DNA from: an uncultured Christensenellaceae bacterium
GTDB taxonomy: Bacteria; Bacillota; Clostridia; Christensenellales; UBA3700
NCBI GenBank assembly: GCA_944383895.1
Contig: CALWRH010000009.1
Location: 1 to 64,000, forward strand
Reading direction: 5' to 3'
Length of the DNA: 64,000 nt
The notes below the pieces were generated by a model, which worked only from the letters and a program-made list of their open reading frames with translations, had not been told where the DNA came from and did not search any database. Numbering within the stretch: the first letter of the stretch is position 1; each line of letters starts with the position of its first letter. The position numbers were made by a program, and so were the translations under genes. Below, piece by piece: positions 44,211 to 63,504 of the stretch.

Positions 44211-44324
44211 ATATTTTTATGGATACTTACTAAAAAGGATAAATTTTCGGATTTTGGAATCAAAAATTGAAAAGCCTCTCCGAATTTGTTTTTTCGGGTG
44301 GCTATGGTAGCATTAGTTCCTCGT

Positions 44325-44477
44325 GGAAGTCAACGGTCGAAAAATCGTTGCCGAAAACACCAATATAAACGAATCGAGAGCCGAGTAAGGAAGTTTTCCT
44401 TGCTCGGCTCTTTTGCTGTTTGTGAGGCTATTGCACGTTCAAAACGCAACGATTTTGGCTTTGCCCCGTTGACTTCC
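44325..44477 (+). other. Structured element upstream of sigma-like gene, copy A
   Basis: Arms GGAAGTCAACGG (44325-44336) and CCGTTGACTTCC (44466-44477) are exact inverse complements. Inside is the hairpin GAGCCGAG..AAGGAA/TTCCTT..CTCGGCTC followed by TTTT (about 44373-44413). The same layout occurs at 50066-50126 and, on minus, at 63297-63148, each upstream of a copy of the same gene family. Confidence 0.7.
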
Positions 44478-44493
44478 GCAGACCAATCGAGAA

Positions 44494-44949
44494 CATGCTT
44501 TTATCGGATGGCTACGACGTAGCGCAGACCGCCATCTGCTTCTGTATCAATTCATAGGTAAGAAGGTATCGGACATTTACGGAAAAGACCGTAGAGGAAA
44601 AGAGATCATAATCAAACTTGCCTGCTATTGGAAAGTAGACGGCGAACTGATGCGTTACCGCAGAAAGATGGAGAACATTTCATACATTGATTTTAACAGT
44701 TACAAGGCATTGCCGATGGATCCCGTAAACTGCTTTGAAAAAGAACAGACGGATTACAACAAATACAATACACTTGTCGAAGCCCTGTGCTTGACAGAAT
44801 TGGAGCTTGCTATTCCAAACTGCTATATGAACGGAATGAGACAATCCGAAGTCTGCGCCGAACTCGGCATCGGCAGAGACGCGATCCACCATAGAAAAGC
44901 AAGCATCCAACAGAGATGTTATACGCTTTACGGCGCGTATTTGATTTGA
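44494..44949 (+). pseudogene. Truncated, frameshifted copy of the sigma-like HTH gene
   Basis: Remnant of the gene family seen intact at 50218 and 62391. SDGYDVAQTAICF (from 44494) matches TDGYDCAQIAICF; a one-base shift near 44536 moves the match to LYQFIGKKVSDIYGKDRRGK and on to YKALPMDPVNCFEKEQ and the final HTH (MRQSEVCAELGIGRDAIHH). About 70 N-terminal codons are missing. The structured element copy A sits directly upstream. Confidence 0.8.
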
Positions 44950-57058: not shown

Positions 57059-57212
57059 GCGACGATATGGGCGGAAGATTTCGCAAGCGGATCAGCGCGA
57101 AACTCCGCCCCGTCGCCGCCGTTTTGTTCCGTTTATCCGTTCAGCCTTCGGAAGTGCGTGCGCTTGGCTTCGGCGAGCAAAGCGAGCCGACTTGTATATA
57201 GCCAAGCGCACG
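57059..57212 (-). other. Two-hairpin element, copy 2 (inverted)
   Basis: Read on minus: hairpin H (57212-57157) CGTGCGCTTGGCT/AGCCAAGCGCACG with inner stem TCGGC/GCCGA and loop TCGCTTTGCTC; then hairpin L (57116-57059) GCGACG, GGGCGGA, TTTCGC arms with apical loop GCTGATCCGCTTGC. Order and loops match the copy at 49789-49950 while stems differ. The rest of 57213-57545 holds only the promoter of the next gene. Confidence 0.72.
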
Positions 57213-57545: not shown

Positions 57546-57857
57546 ATGCCGTCGTTCTATTTAAAAATCGCAGGAGTAACTTTTGAAGGTAGGCAAAGAT
57601 TGATTTCAGGTCTTTCTAGAAAAGGGGAATTAAATCCTGGAACTTTACTTCGTATTGTCGCAGAGCCGAATAATCCGTATGATTCTAATGCGGTCAAGGT
57701 TATGACTATAAGTGGAGAGACTCTCGGCTATATTCCTAAACAGCACAATTCCACAATTGCTTATAATCTCCGCATGGGAAAGCAATATAAGGTGACCGTT
57801 TTGGCTGTGACTGGTGGGGATGAGTTTCTCGGTATAAATATTATGTTGGAGTATTAA
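57546..57857 (+). CDS. HIRAN-domain protein
   Basis: Single HIRAN domain (103 aa), a fold that binds ssDNA 3' ends or damaged DNA. Motifs: KIAGVTFEGRQRLI, LLRIVAEPNNPYDSNAVKVM and GETLGYIPKQHNSTIAYNLR. CGGAGGTTTAGC precedes the ATG. It ends 1 nt before the helicase gene, so the two probably act together in DNA repair, restart or defence. TTGACT...TAAAAT near 57459-57489 may be the promoter. Confidence 0.85.
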   Translation: MPSFYLKIAGVTFEGRQRLISGLSRKGELNPGTLLRIVAEPNNPYDSNAVKVMTISGETLGYIPKQHNSTIAYNLRMGKQYKVTVLAVTGGDEFLGINIMLEY

Positions 57858-57858
57858 G

Positions 57859-60327
57859 ATGAAGTTGACTGACAGACAAATGGAGGTAATTCAATCTGAG
57901 CATAAAAAGCTGATTGTTTTATCTTGCGCGGGAAGCGGAAAGACCACCGTTATAGTAAATCGCATTAATCATATTATTACCGATAAGGGAATCGTTCCGA
58001 CACAAATTTTAGCCCTGACATTTAGCAATAAGGCAGCGCAGGATATGCGTGATAGAGTGTTGAGAGAAGTAAAAACGCTTATCCCCTTAAAGGTCAGCAC
58101 TTTTCATGCTTTTGGATTGGAGCTTATCAGGCGATATCATGAGGAGCTTGGGTTCGAAAAAAGAATTGCAATAATAAGCGCAAACGAGCAAAAGGAGATA
58201 GTTAAGCCCTTACTTCATATGGGCGATGATATTGAAAAGGTGCTTAACTTCATCAGACATTCAAAGTCATTTTCGTTAACTACAGAGGATGATGCTTTGC
58301 AAAAAGTTGCTCCTCATATAGATAACATAGTCGCTGCGTATAATCGTCAACTAAATATTGAAAATAAGGTGGATATGGAAGATATGCTGTATTTGCCTTA
58401 TAACTTGATGCGGAAAAACAAAGACGTTCGGTCAGCAATCACTGAAACTTACAGATATATTTTTGTTGATGAGTATCAGGATACAAATGAAATTCAAAAC
58501 AAATTTCTCGACCTTATATGCGATATCGAAACCAATGTGTGTTTAGTCGGTGATGACGATCAAGCTATATATGAGTGGAGAGGGGCGAAGCCTCAATATA
58601 TTCGTGAGAGGGCTTCCGATCCTTCATACCATTGTATAAAACTTGAGACGAACTTCCGTTCGCAAGGAGCAATAATTAAGATTGCGAATAGGATAATTCA
58701 AAACAATACAAATAGAGTACCGAAACAGATAAGCTCCAATAGACCATGCGAAACGCCGCCATATTTCAAACGCTTCAAAACCGATGAGGAGGAAGCGGCT
58801 TTCGTCGCAAGCAAGATCGGTGAGCTCATTAAATCTAATAGATTCCATCCGTCTGAAATTGCCGTTTTATACCGAGGAGAAAAGCAGTCTGAGGTATTAA
58901 AAAGTGCTTTTGAGAGTAGGAATATTAAGTATGAGGTACGAAACGTTGATAAAAAATACGGGCACAGCAAGTTTTTAGCAGTGTTGCGCTGCGTCGATGC
59001 GTTATCCTCAATAAAGGATGTCATGGATGCAGTTAATTTCCCGACGCGTTGTCTTGACAGATTTGTTTTACAGGACGCAAAGGATATTTATAACCGCGAA
59101 ACAGGCAATACACAGGATTTTGCTCCGCTTGAGTGGATCAATAGGATTTATATGTCGTCTTTTGATTACGATGACGATATCAAGCTGTTCAAGAGCCGTT
59201 ACAAGGCAATAACGGAATTGCAAATGGCGCAGGGCTTAAGTGCAAAGCAAGCCATAGCATTTCTCCTGTCGAAGTATGAAGCGGAAGGGCTGGAAACTGC
59301 TCAACCGATGGAATATCACTTTGCCCTGCAGACTTTGGATTTAGCCGGAACCTTTGAAAAAACCTTCGGGCAGCAGACGCTTAAGGAGTTTATTGCCGAT
59401 TTGAATACGGCGATAGAGCAAGACGAATTTGAAACGCCTATTGATAGAGATTCAGTTTCAATCATGACCATGCACCGTTCCAAGGGATTGGAATACAAGG
59501 TTGTGTTTATAATAGGTATTCAGGTTGGCGTATGCCCAAACGATTACTTTATTAAAACCATTGACGATTTAGAGGCGGAGCGTCGGCTGTTCTATGTGGC
59601 TATGACAAGAGCGAAAGAGCTGCTTTTCTTATCGTCATATGACGATCAGTTAAAGGGTAGCGATGATGAGAAGAGTGTAGTTAAGCATGGCTTCATGGCT
59701 GAAATACCAGAGCTGTTTCTTTCGAGGAAGCCCATTGATAGAGAGATAATCGAAACCTTCCCTATAAAGGAAGATATAGAGGTTGTAAAAGAAAGTGCTG
59801 CCGAAATCAATACGGAAACTTTCAGCGAAATACCGGCTGATGTCGTTGCTGAAATTGAGGAACTTGTTCATGATGAAATTGAGGAGGGCATTGTCCAGCT
59901 CGGCGATTTGAACGAGGATTTGATTGTCAAGCACAGACAAGAGTCGTATGAACTTCTTAGTCAATATAAAATTCCCAAAGATAAAAAGATTGTCATCCTT
60001 GGTGCGGTTGACCTGAAAGTTGATAAAATGTATGGAATACTCAAGGTTGCTGGCTTTACAAAAGACATGGTGGAGTATTATGATTATGAGGGCAGAAACT
60101 TCAACGCAGCAAGACTGGCAAATAATTTGAGGTATGTTGGTATTATAGTTGGACCAGTTGCACACAAAATTCCGTCTGTTGGTACGAGGTCGGTCAAGGA
60201 ATTGCTCGAGATGCCAGGCTACCCGTACATGATCAATTTGATAGACAGAAAAATTACAAAGACATCATTGCAAGACGCTCTGTCTATAATTAAGTGGCAT
60301 TACTTTACAAACAACGATGATAACTAA
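57859..60327 (+). CDS. UvrD/PcrA-like SF1 helicase with extra C-terminal domain
   Basis: 3'-5' DNA helicase (822 aa). Q motif LTDRQMEVIQ, Walker A CAGSGKTTVIV, motif Ia TFSNKAAQDM, Walker B VDEYQDTNEIQ, motif III VGDDDQAIYEWRGA, motif IV TNFRSQ, motif V TMHRSKGLEYKVVFI, motif VI VAMTRAKELL. From about residue 710 there is an added Rossmann-like domain (KIVILGAVDLKVDKMYGILK, VGIIVGPVAHKIPSVG). A HIRAN gene precedes it. Lower G+C than the chromosome indicates transfer. Confidence 0.93.
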   Translation: MKLTDRQMEVIQSEHKKLIVLSCAGSGKTTVIVNRINHIITDKGIVPTQILALTFSNKAAQDMRDRVLREVKTLIPLKVSTFHAFGLELIRRYHEELGFEKRIAIISANEQKEIVKPLLHMGDDIEKVLNFIRHSKSFSLTTEDDALQKVAPHIDNIVAAYNRQLNIENKVDMEDMLYLPYNLMRKNKDVRSAITETYRYIFVDEYQDTNEIQNKFLDLICDIETNVCLVGDDDQAIYEWRGAKPQYIRERASDPSYHCIKLETNFRSQGAIIKIANRIIQNNTNRVPKQISSNRPCETPPYFKRFKTDEEEAAFVASKIGELIKSNRFHPSEIAVLYRGEKQSEVLKSAFESRNIKYEVRNVDKKYGHSKFLAVLRCVDALSSIKDVMDAVNFPTRCLDRFVLQDAKDIYNRETGNTQDFAPLEWINRIYMSSFDYDDDIKLFKSRYKAITELQMAQGLSAKQAIAFLLSKYEAEGLETAQPMEYHFALQTLDLAGTFEKTFGQQTLKEFIADLNTAIEQDEFETPIDRDSVSIMTMHRSKGLEYKVVFIIGIQVGVCPNDYFIKTIDDLEAERRLFYVAMTRAKELLFLSSYDDQLKGSDDEKSVVKHGFMAEIPELFLSRKPIDREIIETFPIKEDIEVVKESAAEINTETFSEIPADVVAEIEELVHDEIEEGIVQLGDLNEDLIVKHRQESYELLSQYKIPKDKKIVILGAVDLKVDKMYGILKVAGFTKDMVEYYDYEGRNFNAARLANNLRYVGIIVGPVAHKIPSVGTRSVKELLEMPGYPYMINLIDRKITKTSLQDALSIIKWHYFTNNDDN

Positions 60328-60339
60328 TAATAGGAACGC

Positions 60340-60908
60340 ATGGTAGCATATACGGTTTCACAAGTAAATACATATGTTAAATCATTGCTTGATAGTAGTG
60401 CAATATTGAGAAATGTGACCGTTATGAGCGAGATTACCAATTTGAGCTTATTTATAGGCGGAAATATTTATTTTCGATAAAGGATGAGTATGCTCAGAGG
60501 GTTGTTATGTTTCAGTCCACAAAGAGCACTAAAGTCATAATCAAGGGTTCAACATTGGTTCATACCATGCAGGGCATATATCGGCTTACTGTCAAAAAGA
60601 GGCAGACAGATAGGCTTGGTGCACTTCATTTGGCGTATGAGCAATTAAAGACTAAGCTTCAACATCGGGGTCTCTTTGATCCAGAGTACAAGAAGCCGAT
60701 TTCTGCTATGACGAAAAAGGTTGTTGTAATTACTACTGCGACGGGTGGGGCAGTTCACGATATCGTTACCATCATAGGTAGGCGACGAGCGGCTGCAGAA
60801 ATATATATATCCCGCAACATCTTAGGGGATAATGCCGAGCAACAGGTAGAATTGATGTCAGAGGATGGTGAGAGAGAATATTGTCTCAAGCCATTTACTG
60901 GGAGTTAG
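60340..60908 (+). pseudogene. Broken xseA-like gene (exonuclease VII large subunit), frameshifted and truncated
   Basis: The first frame (60340-60480) encodes AYTVSQVNTYVKSLLDSS, then VMSEITNLSLFIGGNIYF, the OB-fold start of XseA. A one-base deletion in a T run near 60474 shifts to a second frame reading KDEYAQRVVMFQS, then LAYEQLKTKLQHRGLFDPEY, VVVITTATGGAVHDI. The match then stops; the catalytic and coiled-coil two thirds are missing and the frame ends by TAG 1 nt before the radical SAM gene. Confidence 0.75.
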
Positions 60909-60909
60909 T

Positions 60910-61938
60910 ATGGATTATAAATCTTGCTGGTTGACCGTAAATCGAGCTTGTAATTTGCGGTGTAAATGGTGCTATGCGAAGAGTACCAACTTTGAAAAGT
61001 CGGAAGATATGCCGATAAATTTGGCGTATCAAATTTTAAATATTTGTGAACAACTTCAACTGAAACATATAACAATCATAGGAGGCGAGCCTACCATATA
61101 TCCGCATTTGCACGAAGTGATGGATTATTGCAACAAGAAACGCCTAAAATTTGGGATGGTCACAAATGGGATTAGGTTGGCTGACGAGTCGTTTGTAGAG
61201 GAAATGATTTCTTTGGGAATGAGATCGTTTTCTGTCTCCCTTAAAGGTGAAACACCAGAAATTTTTAAAGATGTATCGGGATTTGATTGCTTTGAAAAGG
61301 TAGTTAGTGGTATTAAAATATGCAAATCGAAAGGGTGCAGAGTTTCTGTTTCAATGGTTTTAACAGAGCAGAATGTTCGCTCGTACTTACAAGGAATAAA
61401 GGCAATGAAGGCGGCGGGAGCGGATGGCTTTCATTTAGCCTTCTGCTATGAGTTTGACCTTAATCCTGATTATAAAACATTCCTTGCGAATACGAATCCT
61501 AAGAAAATAGTAAAAGGTTTCGTTGAAGGATACGATGAGTTGAGCGAAATAACAGAAGGTAAGTTCGAGCTGTTTCAAGCATATCCACTTTGTTTGTGGG
61601 ACAAGGGCTTTATAGAAAAATTGAACGCGCGCGGACAAATATCTACGGTTTGCCAGTTGCTGCACCAAAGCGGGCTGATCTTTGATACGCAGGGCAACAT
61701 AATTCCTTGTAATGCAATGCCGCAAATTAAGCTAGGAAAATTGAATGATGATTTTTCAACGGTTGATGGTCTCCTGAAACATATGAATCAGGATGAAGTG
61801 AAGAATGTCTATAATAGACTTTGCGCAATTCCAGACGAAAAGTGTATGCAGTGCGGAGATTTAGTAAACTGCGGCGGTGGGTGTGTTTGTCAATACACCA
61901 ATTATTCATACAAACAGCTGATGAGCATGGAGGACTGA
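60910..61938 (+). CDS. Radical SAM/SPASM peptide maturase
   Basis: Radical SAM enzyme (342 aa). The 4Fe-4S/SAM motif CNLRCKWC is Cys14, Cys18, Cys21; IIGGEPTIYP is the SAM-contacting GGE box. The C-terminal SPASM region has CQLLHQSGLIFDTQGNIIPC, CAIPDEKCMQCGDLVNCGGG and CVCQ, enough for auxiliary clusters. GGGAGTTAGT sets the ATG. The neighbour 2 nt downstream encodes a Cys-rich peptide, the usual layout for enzymes that make thioether links in RiPPs (sacti- or ranthipeptides). The exact reaction is inferred. Confidence 0.88.
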   Translation: MDYKSCWLTVNRACNLRCKWCYAKSTNFEKSEDMPINLAYQILNICEQLQLKHITIIGGEPTIYPHLHEVMDYCNKKRLKFGMVTNGIRLADESFVEEMISLGMRSFSVSLKGETPEIFKDVSGFDCFEKVVSGIKICKSKGCRVSVSMVLTEQNVRSYLQGIKAMKAAGADGFHLAFCYEFDLNPDYKTFLANTNPKKIVKGFVEGYDELSEITEGKFELFQAYPLCLWDKGFIEKLNARGQISTVCQLLHQSGLIFDTQGNIIPCNAMPQIKLGKLNDDFSTVDGLLKHMNQDEVKNVYNRLCAIPDEKCMQCGDLVNCGGGCVCQYTNYSYKQLMSMED

Positions 61939-61940
61939 AA

Positions 61941-62240
61941 ATGGATACGCATTTTGTAAATTGTATTTCAAAAACTGAAATTCAGCCACAAATAAAACTA
62001 ATGGGCTATGGGCGTAAAAAGAAGAAGGAGTGGATTCCTTCTGATTGCCATTGCAATCAATATGGCGAATGCGACTGCGCAAATTGCTATGTGTGCGACG
62101 AGTGTTTTGTGCCAAATGACTGCCATTGTAATCGATATGGAGAGTGTGATTGTTCCAACTGCATGGTTTGCACGGATTGTCGCGACAGTGACTGTGATTG
62201 CGAACTCGACTGTGATTGCGATTGTGATTACGATTGCTAA
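61941..62240 (+). CDS. Cys-rich candidate RiPP precursor (99 aa)
   Basis: Probable substrate of the adjacent radical SAM enzyme. Residues 1-33 form a leader (EIQPQIKLMGYGRKKKKEWI). The core has two repeats, SDCHCNQYGECDCANC-YVCDEC and NDCHCNRYGECDCSNC-MVCTDC, 7 Cys each, then the tail DSDCDCELDCDCDCDYDC with 6 Cys. So 20 of about 66 core residues are Cys and many are Asp. GGAGGACTGAAA precedes the ATG. A metallothionein-like metal binder is an alternative. Confidence 0.72.
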   Translation: MDTHFVNCISKTEIQPQIKLMGYGRKKKKEWIPSDCHCNQYGECDCANCYVCDECFVPNDCHCNRYGECDCSNCMVCTDCRDSDCDCELDCDCDCDYDC

Positions 62241-62278
62241 TGTGGTGGTAATATGGAAAAGTAGGGTTTGTAAAGCGT

Positions 62279-62313
62279 AAGAGGAAAACTGTATTAATAC
62301 AGCATTTCCTCTT
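62279..62313 (+). terminator. Terminator of the radical SAM-peptide operon
   Basis: AAGAGGAAA/TTTCCTCTT outer stem with inner CTGTATTAATACAG palindrome, then T-rich. Confidence 0.85.
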
Positions 62314-62390: not shown

Positions 62391-63059
62391 TTATAGCTTT
62401 TGGCATTTTCCAATATAGATATGATATTTATTTCTAATACAATGCTTTCTGTAATCCATACCGCTCAGACTTAAGGGCAGAATTCTTGCAATATCAGCGC
62501 GTTTCCAACCACTCATGTAATATTCCAACATTTCCATTTCTTTTTTGGTTAGGCGCATGGCATTCATTAATTCGTCTGCCTTGTCGTAATTCCATTCTTC
62601 TTTTTCAAAGCAATTCACGGGATCTACCGGATATGCCTTGTAGCTTGTAACGTCGATATGCTCCGTTCGTTTAGCTTTTCTGCACAATCCGTCAATATAT
62701 CTGCTGACTTCTCTGTAACAAGCTAATTTTATAGTGATGTTCTTTCCGATGCGGTCCTTTCCGTAATCGTCGTAAACGCTTTTCCCTGCAAATTGCCAAA
62801 GGAAGCATATTGCGATCTGTGCGCAGTCATATCCATCTGTAACGACGTAATCTCTTTCGCCCATATGGTGCAAGTCTTTTATGTAATCGACATACAGTTT
62901 ATCCGCAACGTCAAAATCGTATTTTTTGATTGTGCGTAAAGACTGCAACGCAATCATTTCACCCATCAATTTGATCGTTTCTTCTGAGATGGGCTCTGCA
63001 AAGAGTTCGCTTTCGTTTTCGTACTTCCCGTTAGAGAATTTTTTTACCAGTAATTCCAT
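62391..63059 (-). CDS. Sigma-70-like HTH protein of mobile elements (second intact copy)
   Basis: 222 aa paralogue of the protein at 50218. Shared blocks: YVVTDGYDCAQIAICFLWQF, GKNITIKLACYREVSRYIDG, YKAYPVDPVNCFEKEE; C-terminal HTH LTKKEMEMLEYYMSGWKRAD and MDYRKHCIRNKYH. Closest to the broken copy at 44494 (YKALPMDPVNCFEKEQ). The ATG at 63059 follows CGGAGGTATTGAAT; a TGCCG/CGGCA hairpin lies about 15 nt further up as in the other copy. Structured element C is upstream. Confidence 0.75.
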   Translation of the reverse strand: MELLVKKFSNGKYENESELFAEPISEETIKLMGEMIALQSLRTIKKYDFDVADKLYVDYIKDLHHMGERDYVVTDGYDCAQIAICFLWQFAGKSVYDDYGKDRIGKNITIKLACYREVSRYIDGLCRKAKRTEHIDVTSYKAYPVDPVNCFEKEEWNYDKADELMNAMRLTKKEMEMLEYYMSGWKRADIARILPLSLSGMDYRKHCIRNKYHIYIGKCQKL

Positions 63060-63147
63060 ATTCAATACCTCCGAAATTTTCTGCCGTTTTCGGCAAAGAG
63101 CGGAGGTGCATAGGACGATAAAACTCTATAACTTGCAAATACAATCT

Positions 63148-63297
63148 GCAAAAGTCAACGGAACAAAGCCAAAATCGTTGTGTTCAATTTTCCTACCTCC
63201 AATACATAAAAAAGCCGAGTAAGAAAACCTTCTTACCCGGCATAATTACTTTATATTCTATTTATTCCTCAACGATTTTGCGACCGTTGACTTCTGC
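63148..63297 (-). other. Structured element upstream of sigma-like gene, copy C
   Basis: On minus: arms GCAGAAGTCAACGG and CCGTTGACTTTTGC enclose GCCGGGTAAGAA/TTCTTACTCGGC followed by TTTTTT. GCTATGGTAGCAT just outside the arm (63316-63304) is also outside copy A (44301-44313). The 63060-63504 stretch holds otherwise only an ATACCCAG/CTGGGTAT hairpin near 63399-63444. Confidence 0.7.
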
Positions 63298-63504
63298 GAG
63301 AACTATGCTACCATAGCGAAACGGAAACGGCAAATTTCGGAAGGAAAAAAATGAAATAAAACATAAAAACTCAATTACTGGATATCAGACAATAAAATAC
63401 CCAGCCAAAACTCTTTGTCGTTTACAAAAAGGTTCGACTGGGTATCGTGTGGTGGAGCGTATTTGCACAAAGTCGAATAGTTTCATAGACAGTCGTGCAA
63501 CAAG

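Follow-up and report, generated by a model that had tools for sequence, protein, structure and literature searches.

Several described systems pair a radical SAM enzyme with a small peptide. In the PapB/PapA (freyrasin) ranthipeptide system (NF047865), a radical SAM/SPASM enzyme is paired with a small Cys/Asp-rich peptide in which Cys and Asp are spaced as Cys-x3-Asp, and an RRE binds the PapA leader (PMC9413430). The NxxcA/NxxcB ranthipeptide system forms one bridge, to Asn (PMC8326336), with the acceptor N-terminal to the donor cysteine. The SCIFF peptide has six cysteines in ~45 residues, and its maturase CteB (TIGR03974) has SPASM-type cysteines as well as an N-terminal domain. Clo7bot, CefB and TIGR04463 maturases likewise have Cys-rich partner peptides.

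We analyzed a 64,000-nucleotide stretch of an uncultured Christensenellaceae genome (hereafter the window), which contains a two-gene locus with the following features:

60910..61938, + strand: radical SAM/SPASM-type enzyme gene, 342 aa (ORF; GGAG 5' of the ATG)
61941..62240, + strand: Cys/Asp-rich putative precursor peptide gene, 99 aa, without a database family
61941..62042, + strand: putative leader MDTHFVNCISKTEIQPQIKLMGYGRKKKKEWIPS, residues 1-34 (predicted boundary)
62043..62105, + strand: repeat 1 DCHCNQYGECDCANCYVCDEC, residues 35-55
62118..62180, + strand: repeat 2 DCHCNRYGECDCSNCMVCTDC, residues 60-80
62181..62237, + strand: Asp-Cys tail RDSDCDCELDCDCDCDYDC, residues 81-99
62279..62313, + strand: stable hairpin 3' of the peptide gene, possible shared terminator (z -3.6)

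The enzyme stop codon and the peptide ATG lie 2 nt apart on the same strand, and the GGAGG ribosome site of the peptide gene is embedded in the last codons of the enzyme gene. The ORF coordinates and translations agree with a preliminary description of this DNA, which had reported the 342-aa enzyme, the 2-nt gap, and a 99-aa peptide bearing an Asp-Cys tail behind two repeats of seven cysteines each. That description also placed a shared terminator behind the peptide gene; a stable hairpin is indeed found there and is a plausible terminator, but it is missing from the terminator scan, as it lacks a clear T-run behind it. That description noted no protease or exporter beside the pair, and none is recognized within several kilobases.

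The window enzyme contains a CX3CX2C motif and a GGEP motif, and Pfam Radical_SAM matches its residues 10-155 with 80 bits (cut-off 29.5), placing it in the radical SAM superfamily. Its RS cluster cysteines, Cys 14, 18 and 21, are invariant in the aligned relatives, as is GGEP. An alignment with eight relatives reveals ten invariant cysteines in all (14, 18, 21, 228, 248, 267, 312, 315, 321 and 325). Using the auxiliary-cluster ligands of AhbD as a spacing reference (PMC10452713), Cys 228, 248, 267 and 325 would ligate AuxI and Cys 312, 315 and 321 would ligate AuxII. The usual last ligand of AuxII, the fourth, is present in AhbD and absent from the window enzyme; the related enzyme of genome G818 has a candidate for it. 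SPASM domains have seven or eight C-terminal cysteines serving two auxiliary clusters, and the window enzyme has seven, all invariant and in AhbD-like spacing. These features are in keeping with the earlier assignment as a radical SAM/SPASM-type enzyme, but its SPASM domain is putative, the last AuxII ligand being missing.

Among solved enzymes, those nearest by profile and by fold are in most cases peptide maturases (CteB, SkfB and SuiB), together with MoaA, the fold side of this comparison resting on a weak model. Our AlphaFold model was built from a two-sequence input, has a mean pLDDT of 60 and is unreliable in its C-terminal half, so we did not take cluster geometry from it; the structures that match its fold are radical SAM enzymes, SkfB ranking first and SuiB third. 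In NCBIfam, every model scores far under its cut-off. The top matches include NirJ, ScmE, MoaA, TIGR04317 and PapB, with ScmE the highest at 76.7 bits. Enzyme and peptide are outside the named families of NCBIfam, Pfam and PHROGs.

Each of the described systems differs from the window pair. The PapB profile aligns with nearly the full length of the enzyme (residues 5-327), but with 65.5 bits against a curated cut-off of 340. PapB itself joins Cys to the beta-carbon of Asp in a thioether. The radical SAM domain begins at about residue 6, so an RRE cannot fit within the enzyme, and no Pfam match to an RRE is found in its neighboring ORFs. CteB is the closest sequence in the PDB (5wgg), but is ~110 aa longer and has an N-terminal domain. 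The SCIFF model (maturase cut-off 425 bits) is not among the best 25 matches, and the window peptide has 21 cysteines in 99 aa; by peptide size, cysteine count and enzyme score, the pair is not a SCIFF system. Enzymes nearest the Clo7bot, CefB and TIGR04463 models, which include some discussed below, are 424-437 aa long, carry an N-terminal region and reach ~135-185 bits against these models. The window enzyme lacks such a region, these models are not among its best 25 matches, and its top NCBIfam score of 76.7 bits compares with cut-offs of 525-600, so we rejected membership here as well. Prokaryotic viperins share the radical SAM core, and the window enzyme scores 59.7 bits against their curated cut-off of 180 bits. 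To our knowledge viperins have no SPASM domain, and the partner peptide in the window is unrelated.

The putative leader of the window peptide contains GRKKKK, and its tail is DSDCDCELDCDCDCDYDC. The repeats DCHCNQYGECDCANCYVCDEC and DCHCNRYGECDCSNCMVCTDC each comprise 21 residues with seven cysteines and are spaced 25 aa apart. At the DNA level the two are separated by 19 base differences, of which 13 fall in third codon positions, and nine codon changes are synonymous and five non-synonymous; this bias is as expected of a protein-coding repeat that would be under selection. Asp immediately precedes Cys 11 times in the peptide, compared with 4.3 times in shuffled sequences, whereas Cys-x3-Asp is rarer in its core than in shuffles (2 observed, 4.1 expected). 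On score, on the absence of an RRE and on this spacing we rejected identity with PapB, and the link to PapB drawn in the preliminary description is not supported in that form: where PapA has CX3D, the window peptide has Asp directly before Cys.

We identified four related enzymes in other Clostridia genomes, each adjoining an Asp/Cys-rich peptide of its own. Three of the enzymes are 26-31% identical to the window enzyme, and the fourth, from G1360, is 50% identical to the enzyme of G1302. In Pumilibacter muris (31% identity), the 3' end of the enzyme gene is overlapped by the gene of an 82-aa peptide, which contains NEYGDCDSNDC as well as long runs of CxC. In G818, a 52-aa peptide with the C-terminus NCDYDCDRDCACACWDCK lies 5' of the enzyme gene and ends 3 nt before it. 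In G1302 (26% identity), three DCHC repeats occur in a 76-aa peptide encoded 36 nt downstream of the enzyme gene, and in G1360 a peptide of ~50 aa with four cysteines, including DCNCIDCGDDADC, overlaps the enzyme gene. A sixth and simplest partner is possibly found in G1304, where a 34-aa candidate ORF with one Cys, ending in YDCDP, lies ~85 nt upstream with a good ribosome site. The precursor gene is thus kept beside the enzyme gene clearly in five genomes and possibly in a sixth, as is characteristic of RiPPs. The peptide lies before or after the enzyme gene depending on the genome, so this is not a single frozen arrangement.

Could the two genes be chance neighbors, with the peptide not a substrate? 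Serine recombinases and Rep genes abound in the window tract, and a broken xseA gene lies immediately upstream, but equivalent pairs are found in four further genomes, with either gene first and with unrelated neighbors. In addition, when small ORFs were scored for stretches of 20 residues rich in Asp and Cys, just 9 of 6,356 (from 630 kb comprising background DNA and related loci) were comparably rich. Five of the nine accompany enzymes of this group, two belong to the radical SAM cluster on contig C4 of the same genome, and two lie on one viral contig that had been chosen for carrying the motif. We consider a chance association highly improbable; given its recurrence in four further genomes, the pairing is well supported. 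Pairs of a radical SAM enzyme and an unnamed Cys/Asp-rich peptide, as reported earlier for the window, thereby extend to P. muris, G818, G1302 and G1360.

The enzyme group is of low prevalence, with one to four members per few hundred genomes searched. When 84,980 genomes were scanned at the protein level with the window enzyme, no relatives were returned. In the same genomes, the DNA pattern NxYG[E/D]CDxxxC gave 47 matches, and a small peptide beside a radical SAM gene was found only in P. muris; the repeat pattern CxCN.YGECDC, proposed earlier as a search handle across genomes, is thus not a family signature in this set of ~85,000. No relatives turned up in viral contigs when the enzymes, the peptide and two motifs served as queries, and phages and plasmids yielded only distant radical SAM proteins (22-29% identity).

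Not every relative has a partner of this kind. No such Asp/Cys-rich peptide lies beside the related enzymes of G473, the closest at 42% identity, or G1361. The G473 enzyme gene faces one for a Clo7bot-like enzyme, behind which lies a 27-aa ORF with ISDCCDDCDWGID. A related clade in G660 and G1236, in which a UvrA-like ABC protein is followed by a related radical SAM enzyme (L071:5086-8498 and L078:51-2547), likewise has no Cys-rich peptide. In the enzyme tree, peptide-bearing and peptide-less members are interleaved and three label changes are needed, so a single origin of the association is not borne out. As the peptide-bearing enzymes do not form one clean clade, we allow for gain or loss of partners, or for partners elsewhere in the genome. 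A same-genus genome (G008, L013:1468-2490) encodes a further relative that lacks the CX3CX2C motif and is apparently decayed.

The peptides themselves are diverse. No NCBIfam or PHROGs model matches those tested, and no Pfam model matches the window peptide, in agreement with the earlier placement of this peptide outside named families. Leaders can be aligned only between G1302 and G1360 (p 0.0005), which led us to reject a leader shared across the peptides; the basic leader of the window peptide, pointed out previously, is not conserved among its relatives. Asp-before-Cys exceeds shuffles in four of the five peptides (window, P. muris, G1302 and G1360; p 0.0005 to 0.04) and gives p 0.14 in G818, these p-values being guides, since several spacings were tried and core boundaries were set by the analyst. 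DCxC is present in all five. At the level of sequence, the feature common to the peptides is therefore Asp directly N-terminal to Cys (DC, DCxC). The D-x-x-C within DCxC would also allow an acceptor N-terminal to the donor Cys, as in NxxcA/NxxcB.

Beyond the adjacent D-C pair, Asp-Cys distances vary among the peptides, a point that bears on which bond is formed. The enzyme might instead carry out other chemistry, such as epimerization, conversion of Asp or Asn to a dehydro residue, C-C bond formation or decarboxylation, with the cysteines reacting later without an enzyme. Variable spacing is in keeping with this, as is the range of reactions covered by enzymes of this general architecture and the diversity of profile matches, all far below cut-off. 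However, almost all partner peptides have multiplied cysteines, and cysteine is the usual donor in radical SAM/SPASM thioether enzymes, and we regard such chemistry as possible but unlikely.

A different role for the peptide itself has also to be weighed. The main rival here is metal binding, in which the peptide would be a metallothionein-like protein or a RiPP metallophore, holding Cu, Zn or Fe through Cys, Asp or His, and the enzyme would make a small change or none. Dense CxC and DCHC motifs look like metal sites, and Cys-rich RiPPs made by MNIO enzymes (bufferins) are reported to chelate copper (PMC12452194). Moreover, a DUF1292 protein of the same genome (L098:1198-1614) has an Asp/Cys-rich C-terminus, DDCDCDDCDCEDCGSCGCEGC, with no radical SAM gene within 1.5 kb (3-kb locus), so composition alone is no proof of modification. 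Against metal binding, the pairing with a radical SAM enzyme recurs, some partners carry four cysteines or one, too few for a cluster-type chelator, and no metal transporter or sensor is recognized beside the genes examined. On balance we judge this role decidedly unlikely.

We instead favor, as the probable reading, a two-gene RiPP-type module in which the enzyme would modify cysteines within the Asp-Cys runs of the peptide, probably forming thioethers. Sequence comparison shows the enzyme class, the adjacency of the genes, their recurrence in unrelated neighborhoods and the Asp-before-Cys feature. As the pair recurs, the peptide is likely the substrate of the adjacent enzyme; given the cysteine density and the type of enzyme, a Cys thioether is a moderately likely product. 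Counting against the module are the peptide-less relatives in G473 and G1361, the interleaved tree, the absence of an RRE, the mostly unalignable leaders and the Asp/Cys-rich tail of the DUF1292 protein. In the proposed mechanism, the two genes are probably co-transcribed and the enzyme would bind the small peptide encoded directly 3' of its own gene. It would most likely remove a hydrogen atom from carbon in a residue close by, with Asp the best candidate, and that carbon would then be joined to a Cys sulfur to give several thioether rings. A leader may also be cleaved off, the locus having no protease or exporter next to it. The product may be secreted, as a signal or antimicrobial, or may bind metal and be retained in the cell.

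Overall, the pair appears to be a peptide-modifying system that has so far gone unnamed, from a Clostridia genome of gut type. It defines an unnamed group of enzymes of ~335-350 aa that lack an RRE, and an unnamed group of peptides with unusually high Cys and Asp density. If every DC unit were modified, one small enzyme would install many consecutive rings, which would be useful in peptide engineering and would test how an RRE-less enzyme locates its substrate. Partners ranging from one to more than 20 cysteines offer simple substrates for identifying the bond formed. A more speculative extension, which we hold to be rather unlikely, is a new ranthipeptide-like class in which RRE-less radical SAM enzymes act on the Asp-Cys dipeptide to make dense, small Cys-Asp thioether rings, possibly between adjacent residues, on precursors that grow by DC repeats from one to more than 20 cysteines.

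The same genome encodes three more radical SAM genes on contig C4, each next to a small Cys peptide:

L076:6307-6408, + strand: small Cys peptide beside its own radical SAM gene
L076:9547-9735, - strand: small Cys peptide beside its own radical SAM gene
L076:11261-11440, - strand: small Cys peptide beside its own radical SAM gene

One of these peptides contains CKCDDYCSDC, another is 62 aa long and contains CRCDCDDCNCDYYCSCDCD, and the third has repeated Cys-x-Pro-Asp in the form of C-N/G-P-D motifs (Cys-x-x-Asp). Two of the three enzymes are nearest CefB/TIGR04463-type models, and these two and the G473 neighbor are the enzymes nearest the Clo7bot, CefB and TIGR04463 models referred to above. 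Two of the genome's four Rep genes lie in the window tract and a third lies beside the contig C4 cluster; the Rep protein beside that cluster and one upstream of the window pair are 46% identical, and the shared Rep DNA stops near 57212. A common mobile carrier for the window pair and the contig C4 cluster is suggested by these similarities.

Upstream, on the same strand as the radical SAM gene, 57546-60327 holds a HIRAN-domain gene and, immediately behind it, the gene of a UvrD helicase that PADLOC finds similar to GajB; no GajA was seen. The xseA (exonuclease VII large subunit) remnant spans 60340-60908 in two frames and is cut short immediately 5' of the radical SAM gene. Downstream, a regulator-like gene 3' of the peptide is covered by inverted stretches (44301-44762 and 62581-63317) that are 67-76% similar.
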